Source of the DNA: Deltaproteobacteria bacterium
Lineage (GTDB): Bacteria > Desulfobacterota_D > UBA1144 > Nemesobacterales > Nemesobacteraceae
Reading direction: 5' to 3'
DNA: 45,652 nucleotides
NCBI GenBank assembly: GCA_029262295.1
Contig: JAJCZR010000073.1
Location: 1 to 45,652 of the forward strand
Position numbers and translations under genes: made by a program
Shown here: piece after piece, positions 26,225 to 27,270 of the stretch
How the letters are laid out: the number at the start of each line of letters is the position of its first letter
Numbering within the stretch: position 1 is the first letter of the stretch
Notes under the pieces: generated by a model
Database searches by the model: none
What the model saw: only the letters and a program-made list of their open reading frames with translations
Told to the model about the DNA's origin: nothing

Positions 26225-26233
26225 TGTTATAAT
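26225..26233 (+). promoter_or_regulatory. Extended -10 promoter for the FmdB-like pair
   Basis: TGTTATAAT is a perfect extended -10 (TG-n-TATAAT) 35 bases upstream of the first FmdB-like ATG. No strong -35 is present at 17 bases (TAGTAA-like). Downstream, a GGAG ribosome-binding site precedes the ATG. This is one of the better promoter matches in the window and implies the two genes form their own transcript. Confidence 0.55.
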
Positions 26234-26268: not shown

Positions 26269-26775
26269 ATGCCACTATATGAATATGAATGTGAGAATTG
26301 TATGGGTAGATATAATTCTGATATAGACAACCTAGTTGAGAAATTGAACAAGACCAATGCATCAAAAGTCTTTAAATCTAATAATGGGTTTACTTATATA
26401 GAAGTAACTGATAATAATAATGATAAACTCGTTTTTGGATTTGGTGATAAAGATAAACCTAATACCAGAAAATTTCGTTATAAACTGGATAATGGGAAAA
26501 TACTTTACCTTGAGTTAAAGAACTTTAGATTTAGTGAGCTTGTAAGCCTTGGAGAAGAAAGCAATCTTGATATTGACTGTCCGATTTGTGAAGAATCAGA
26601 CGATGTAAGAAGGGTTTTTTCTACTTTTAAGGCAATCTTTGATGATAAAAGCAAAAGGGCTCCAAGGCCAGGTGATGATTTGAAATGGCACCTTGAATAT
26701 AAAGAGCAAAAAGATGAAGAACAAAGAAACGACTGGGTTGGTCAGGATCATTTAAATCAGTACTTTAACAGATAG
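26269..26775 (+). CDS. FmdB-like split zinc-ribbon protein, copy 1
   Basis: A 168-residue protein. The first 11 residues, MPLYEYECENC, match the start of FmdB-family regulatory zinc ribbons, with Cys 8 and 11. In that small family the second CxxC comes about 20 residues later. Here it is at Cys 104 and 107 (DIDCPICEES), followed by a family-like VRRVFSTF. The residues between (about 15-100) form an unrecognised mixed alpha/beta insert with the motif NFRFSEL at 85-91. The C-terminal tail is charged (KWHLEYKEQKDEEQRNDW). There is no signal peptide or membrane segment. It is 12 bases upstream of a co-linear paralogue. I infer a cytoplasmic zinc protein; its function is unknown. Confidence 0.82.
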   Translation: MPLYEYECENCMGRYNSDIDNLVEKLNKTNASKVFKSNNGFTYIEVTDNNNDKLVFGFGDKDKPNTRKFRYKLDNGKILYLELKNFRFSELVSLGEESNLDIDCPICEESDDVRRVFSTFKAIFDDKSKRAPRPGDDLKWHLEYKEQKDEEQRNDWVGQDHLNQYFNR

Positions 26776-26787
26776 GAGTATTTTAAT

Positions 26788-27270
26788 ATGCCGCTTTATG
26801 AATTTGAATGTGTGAAATGCAGAAGTAATATTGAAAATAGTGTTAAATCGATTGAGAAAAAGGTTAACAAAAAAGTTTTATCTGATTTAGTAAACAAATA
26901 TGAAAACATTAATGCTATTGATGTAATTGACCTTGTGAATGATAAACTGACTGCCAAAGCCGGCAAGAAAGGAAAAGAATCAGTTTATCAGGATTTTTAC
27001 ATAAACAATGGTGAAACTCTTGTTCTATTTAATATTCAAAATTACAGGTTTTCTGAACTGATTTACGAAGAGTCGGATGAAAAAAAAGTGAAATGCAAAA
27101 ATAATAATAGCCACAAAGTTGAAAAAGTTGTTTCCTCCTTTGCTTTTACAAGTGACCTTTCAACCAATATGCCTAAACCTGATTTGGGCAACATGCCCCC
27201 ATCTGTTGCAGCAAAGTACAATTTTTCAGGTTATGTTGAAGAAAAAGACAGACCTAAGAAAAACAGATAA
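26788..27270 (+). CDS. FmdB-like split zinc-ribbon protein, copy 2
   Basis: A 160-residue paralogue of the preceding protein. It begins MPLYEFECVKC (Cys 8 and 11). The second knuckle is degenerate: Cys 103, then CKNNNSH with His 109 in place of the second Cys, followed by KVEKVVSSFAF. The insert aligns in position with copy 1. NYRFSEL again falls at residues 85-91, and NDKL and an NNG or DNG turn recur. The C-terminus is different, with short Pro/Met-rich segments (PKPDLGNMPPSVAAKYNFSG). Its AGGAG ribosome-binding site overlaps the TAG of copy 1, so the two are probably translationally coupled. It converges on hisIE within 3 bases. Possible zinc ligation by Cys3His is inference. Confidence 0.8.
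   Translation: MPLYEFECVKCRSNIENSVKSIEKKVNKKVLSDLVNKYENINAIDVIDLVNDKLTAKAGKKGKESVYQDFYINNGETLVLFNIQNYRFSELIYEESDEKKVKCKNNNSHKVEKVVSSFAFTSDLSTNMPKPDLGNMPPSVAAKYNFSGYVEEKDRPKKNR

Follow-up and report, generated by a model that had tools for sequence, protein, structure and literature searches.

A tandem pair of FmdB-family zinc-ribbon proteins with an unrecognised folded insert between the zinc knuckles is conserved in Candidatus Dadabacteria

Few small bacterial proteins are as widespread as zinc ribbons of the FmdB type, whose function is barely known. The window analysed here, a stretch of 45,652 nucleotides from a member of the largely uncultured phylum Candidatus Dadabacteria, contains two adjacent genes whose products a sequence-only reading took for FmdB-like proteins with a zinc ribbon split by an unrecognised domain. 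Does this pair represent a genuine variant of the family, where does the additional domain begin and end, and what could the two proteins do? The genes and their putative expression signals are located as follows.

26269-26775, forward strand: copy A, open reading frame (ORF) coding for an FmdB-family zinc-ribbon protein with insert, 168 aa
26788-27270, forward strand: copy B, ORF coding for an FmdB-family zinc-ribbon protein with insert, 160 aa
26774-26778, forward strand: Shine-Dalgarno sequence AGGAG of copy B, lying over the copy A stop codon, read from the sequence; the short gap is conserved
26225-26233, forward strand: extended -10-like box TGTTATAAT, 36 nt 5' of the copy A start, read from the sequence

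Co-transcription of the two genes, as originally proposed, is likely: the TAG stop codon of copy A (26773-26775) lies within TAGGAG, overlapping the ribosome-binding site of copy B as had been described, and the gap between copies A and B measures 3-27 nt except in two copies, both of which are truncated or frameshifted ORF calls. In many relatives, inspection by eye shows a similar box (TTATAAT/TTAATAT) preceding copy A by about 30-40 nt. Since a consensus promoter scan did not list the site at 26225-26233, we give this -10-like box as a suggestion only. A search of the window for a CIRCE element found none. Homology between copies A and B spans the length of the proteins (BLASTP: 31% identity, E = 1e-15), and profile-profile comparison of the two gave a probability of 99.8% over 163 columns.

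Both proteins begin with the FmdB signature MPLYE-[YF]-EC-x2-C (Cys 8 and Cys 11), and the second knuckle is found where it had been placed, at Cys 104/107 in copy A and at Cys 103 with His 109 in copy B, followed by a V-x-[RK]-V-[FV]-S stretch (VRRVFS, residues 113-118, in copy A; VEKVVS, residues 111-116, in copy B). The pair shares this start and this stretch with the FmdB family (PF09723/TIGR02605), from which it differs by an insert of about 74 residues after the first knuckle, by specific conserved tails and by its tandem duplication. Against PF09723 (Zn_ribbon_8, cut-off 34.4 bits), both intact window proteins scored below the cut-off (copy A 28.3, copy B 26.1 bits); against TIGR02605 (CxxC_CxxC_SSSS, cut-off 31.3 bits), copy A scored below (26.9) and copy B above (33.0), while both members of a relative's pair exceeded it (A 35.0, B 41.4 bits). 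The spacer between the knuckles is about 91-92 residues long compared to about 17-20 in a continuous ribbon, and returns to about 17-18 once the insert is subtracted. Judged from their sequences, both ORFs are thus confirmed as FmdB-family zinc ribbons with knuckles about 92 residues apart. The elements of ribbon and insert are:

26290-26301, forward strand: copy A, first zinc knuckle, Cys 8/Cys 11, from the sequence
26305-26526, forward strand: copy A, insert, residues 13-86, predicted alpha-alpha-beta-beta-beta-beta, from the insert-less copy B, excision and the model
26527-26622, forward strand: copy A, rest of the ribbon, residues 87-118, from the PF09723 match after excision, over residues 1-42
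26578-26589, forward strand: copy A, Cys 104/107, within the rest of the ribbon
26809-26820, forward strand: copy B, first zinc knuckle, Cys 8/Cys 11, from the sequence
26824-27045, forward strand: copy B, insert, residues 13-86, from the model
27046-27135, forward strand: copy B, rest of the ribbon, residues 87-116, with Cys 103 kept, the second Cys missing and His 109 nearby, from the sequence

The proposed architecture, a domain inside an FmdB zinc ribbon, held; its length, put at about 90 residues, did not, as the insert spans about 74 (residues 13-86). In three genomes of family f5 (L034, L036 and L037), copy B is insert-less: it is 87 aa long, reads MPLYEYECLKCK-HKFSE..., has its second knuckle at the ordinary distance, keeps the tail of the long copies B and scores 54-57 bits against TIGR02605. 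Alignment of this short form to the long ones places the insert from residue 13 to about residue 86 and assigns RFSEL to the host. The N-[FY]-RFSEL motif does lie at residues 85-91 in both copies, but it had been attributed to the insert, whereas the insert-less copies B and the excision indicate that RFSEL is the host ribbon resuming. In silico excision of residues 13-86 raised the PF09723 score of copy A from 28.3 to 42.2 bits and that of copy B from 26.1 to 31.9 bits, the latter remaining below 34.4 bits as expected from its missing Cys. TIGR02605 followed the same trend for copy A (26.9 to 41.8 bits), and the L017 relatives rose against PF09723 from 32.3 to 40.5 bits (A) and from 35.1 to 40.0 bits (B).

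AlphaFold2 modelling over 37 copies B (mean pLDDT 80.8, pTM 0.64) predicts helices at residues 9-24 and 28-37, strands at 41-48, 53-59, 65-72 and 77-84, and a ribbon strand at 87-91, with block means of pLDDT of 90-96 across residues 11-90. The same elements recur in the copy A model, though less confidently (mean 72.4, pTM 0.51), and the tails of both copies are of low confidence. As modelled, the insert is a compact alpha-alpha-beta4 domain, confidently so in copy B, whose predicted strands 3-8, 87-91 and 111-114 are compatible with one ribbon.

The sequence-only reading had called the insert unrecognised, and searches of Pfam, NCBIfam and PDB sequences agreed in returning no known domain. 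A Pfam scan of 60 inserts reached E values of about 0.004 at best, scattered over unrelated families, and listed no Cache or PAS family except one isolated CHASE5 hit (E = 0.036); the PDB sequence search returned nothing for copy A, and for the insert alone its best match, MLH1 (E = 0.12), was dismissed as chance. Comparison with a viral structure library gave no credible structural match. Foldseek searches of both copies against the PDB gave no match at E ≤ 0.001, and their top matches were Cache sensor domains (CqsR, KinD; E = 0.03 for copy B and 0.1 for copy A, probability about 0.9-1.0), with alignments covering only about 55-70 residues at a TM-score of about 0.28. What the two have in common is a helical part that precedes antiparallel strands. 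Cache domains have a PAS-like core of five strands (PMC4822843), whereas the insert has four, the fifth (87-91) belonging to the ribbon; moreover, the insert has no sequence match to such domains and no membrane helix attached. We therefore treat the weak resemblance of the modelled insert to Cache domains as a lead and not as membership. When the insert was searched against 387 genomes, the only matches were the Dadabacteria pair and four weak partial hits (1e-4 to 1e-3). Of these, three were examined: two, from genomes of a single genus, are a 144-aa ORF that neighbours flagellar genes, and the third is an unrelated ORF. Being partial and, in these three, devoid of the FmdB motif, the outside matches were treated as chance. 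As this sample is thin outside the phylum, restriction to Dadabacteria is a statement about the sample. A literature search for FmdB with zinc ribbon or with Dadabacteria yielded nothing relevant.

Copy A found matches in 53 of the 61 genomes searched, three of which were from other phyla, and all 53 belong to the window's own phylum; copy B found matches in 53 of the 58 Candidatus Dadabacteria genomes. Since hisIE, the usual neighbour, is also absent from all five genomes lacking the pair, assembly gaps best explain the missing pairs; in a further case, G024, copy A is cut by a contig end and hisIE is likewise absent. The pair lies side by side in all sampled families except f2, represented by a single genome, where the absence may be real. 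A scan of GTDB contigs with the copy A profile recovered at least 22 loci, with relatives consistent with Dadabacteria among the matches listed; the same scan with copy B alone found nothing. Across the phylum the genes mostly follow the series era - enoyl-CoA hydratase - A - B - hisIE - hydantoinase, and these neighbours include no link to chaperones. In families f1 and f6 the neighbours change and A and B stay adjacent; in L039 and L040 (family f6), the pair is immediately followed on the same strand by 2-oxoglutarate dehydrogenase E1/E2-related genes, in place of hisIE. Being largely constant across the phylum, the neighbourhood is uninformative on function.

Ordinary FmdB proteins also occur in most Dadabacteria genomes. 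The window's genome codes for one elsewhere (G000:C50, locus L001; PF09723 56.5, TIGR02605 68.9 bits), which shares with the pair C8/C11 of its C8/C11/C29/C32 ribbon and differs in having no insert and a Ser/Lys-rich tail. A second, short FmdB subfamily in the phylum (L140, L142, L144, L146 and L147) has a Cys-rich C-terminus of the form ~CGC-x5/6-CGC (e.g. SGCGCRPVSCGCSIRN), absent from canonical copies and possibly a second metal site.

How well the zinc knuckles are preserved differs between the two copies. Cys 8 and Cys 11 are invariant in 39 copies A; in copy B, Cys 8 is invariant and Cys 11 is kept in at least 90%, one copy B (L042) lacking it. All copies A with unambiguous sequence keep at least two second-knuckle Cys besides Cys 8/11, arranged as C-x2-C, C-x5-C or C-x-C-x3-C. 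In the window, copy A has two CxxC knuckles with four Cys, and the second knuckle of copy B has one Cys. The predicted loss of a Cys in one copy thus stands for the window's copy B, but complete loss is clear in this genome only, one other having an ambiguous base; relatives' copies B carry C-x2-C, C-x-C, C-x-C-C or C-C, the last three being irregular forms that occur across many lineages. None of the relatives seen supports His 109 as a replacement ligand.

The most conserved portions of the two proteins include their C-terminal tails:

26623-26772, forward strand: copy A, conserved tail, residues 119-168 (FKAIFDDK...WVGQDHLNQYF), from column identity and dN/dS
27136-27267, forward strand: copy B, conserved tail, residues 117-160 (DLST-MPKPDL...YVEEKDRPKKNR), from column identity and its retention in insert-less copies B

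Mean pairwise column identity along copy A is 0.72 for the ribbon start, 0.54 for the insert, 0.49 for the second ribbon half and 0.73 for the tail, and along copy B 0.76, 0.44, 0.65 and 0.67, respectively. Whole-gene median dN/dS is about 0.07-0.18 (about 0.07-0.09 for copy A, whose tail has a median of about 0.03), as estimated by NG86 with few pairs in some groups and a high dS in family f8. In the row counts of this constraint analysis, some genomes are represented by repeated loci. The two inserts have very few conserved positions in common.

These data also bear on the history of the pair. It had been proposed that the insert was acquired before the gene was duplicated, and this order is borne out by the homologous inserts of both copies; the timing had to be revised, as both events are old. 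Homologous inserts, together with a phylum-wide orthologue set for each copy, give the order insertion, duplication, radiation, and sequence and trees support that both copies were fixed before the Dadabacteria radiated. We considered whether the insert-less copy B could be ancestral and rejected this, because the three genomes carrying it nest inside f5 in the copy A tree, grouping with G026 and G034, and their relatives' copies B are long; absence of the insert in copy B is therefore derived. In this tree G018 pairs with G026 and not with the other two insert-less genomes (moderate support, 95/66), and the insert may have been lost once or twice. A long branch leads to the ribbon of the short copies B, and they may have arisen through recombination with another FmdB. 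Gene conversion from an ordinary FmdB was rejected after comparison by eye with the two paralogues of G018 and the two of G030, none of which is a close match. In G026, which is close to the insert-less genomes, copy B (L152, G026:C57:11400-12900) is frameshifted within the insert, reflecting either decay or sequencing error.

To our knowledge, the only characterised protein with this ribbon layout is Ruc, whose family we take to be FmdB, given the identical Cys layout. Ruc (Rv0991c) has the layout C8/C11/C29/C32 and binds one zinc; it becomes active upon oxidation and cooperates with DnaK (PMC7448276). It consists of a zinc ribbon of about 50 residues and a hydrophilic, variable and disordered C-terminal tail; the name FmdB is not used in its description, which reports lineages with Ruc and without Hsp33 and an anticorrelation between the two (PMC7448276). 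Cys 8/11 occupy identical positions in Ruc and in the pair. In Ruc the spacer is 17 residues with no insert, whereas the second Cys pair of our proteins is displaced by the insert, and the tail of Ruc is variable and disordered whereas those of the pair are conserved (0.73 and 0.67 column identity).

We tentatively favour, as the leading possibility, that the pair forms a hetero-oligomeric zinc/redox adaptor related to Ruc and distinct from it, with the zinc site of copy A as switch. The products of copies A and B would act together, the ribbon serving as a hinge that holds both ends of the insert. The copy A site, with at least four Cys, would bind zinc and open upon oxidation or zinc loss, and its opening would shift the insert and either release the tail or alter its shape. 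Copy B, with its relaxed metal site, would play the more structural part; neither regular zinc ligands nor the insert are essential to its role, since ligands are lost in several lineages and three genomes are insert-less. The conserved tails would bind particular partners in the cell, with protein quality control, the role shown for Ruc, as a plausible setting; their strong conservation suits specific docking. This reading accords with the pair staying adjacent even where the neighbours differ, with the compact insert of the models and with the absence of HSP33 hits from the phylum, in line with the anticorrelation of Hsp33 and Ruc. Against it stand a neighbourhood that does not point to chaperones, the contrast with the variable tails of Ruc and the lack of a CIRCE element in the window.

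Other explanations were weighed against this adaptor. That the pair would be an artefact, in which ORFs arose by chance or a frameshift joined unrelated pieces, finds an argument only in the fact that the intact proteins score below the PF09723 cut-off; we consider it refuted, with a negligible residual probability, by conservation and purifying selection across 53 of 58 genomes, and the phylum-wide conservation and median dN/dS values exclude a chance architecture. Closer to the known relative, each copy could be a plain Ruc-like, oxidation-activated holdase whose insert only adds a client-binding surface. The FmdB/Ruc-type ribbon would suit such a role, as would the phylum's complement: HSP33 (PF01430) was not found in any of the 58 Dadabacteria genomes, while 8 of 14 control genomes were positive, and TIGR02605 proteins exceed the cut-off in 54 of the 58. 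However, the tails are conserved and not variable, the Cys of copy B are irregular or lost in many lineages, and the ordinary FmdB copies could fill the role; we hold this to be unlikely, and favour the adaptor over it because of the conserved tails and the relaxed knuckle of copy B.

The pair could instead be ligand-sensing regulators, the insert being a reduced Cache/PAS-like sensor of small molecules whose signal would reach RNA polymerase, DNA or RNA through the ribbon and the tail. Zinc ribbons are common in transcription factors, and Cache domains are the best fold matches of both copies, but these matches stay above E = 0.001 with a TM-score of about 0.28, the insert has four strands and not the five of the PAS-like core, Pfam offers only the isolated CHASE5 hit, and, with so few positions conserved between the two inserts, no shared pocket is evident. 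This reading appears doubtful. It is unlikely, too, that the two proteins are structural subunits of a larger complex in which ribbon and insert act as scaffolding and zinc has no switching role. The conserved tails, the relaxed metal site of copy B and an insert dispensable in copy B of three genomes all fit a structural role, but every clear copy A retains at least four Cys and no constant neighbour presents itself as a candidate partner complex. A phylum-specific two-protein switch, in which an undescribed domain between redox-sensitive ribbon halves would be moved directly by opening of the zinc site, is speculative and rather improbable.

The pair is thus a real, old and conserved phylum-wide variant of FmdB with an unrecognised folded insert. 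It constitutes a natural domain-insertion experiment between the knuckles of a ribbon, with natural reversions in copy B, and provides both a testable handle on the role of this ribbon and a signature gene pair for Dadabacteria. If the two-protein switch were true, it would represent a new coupling of metal or redox state to protein interaction in nearly all Dadabacteria.
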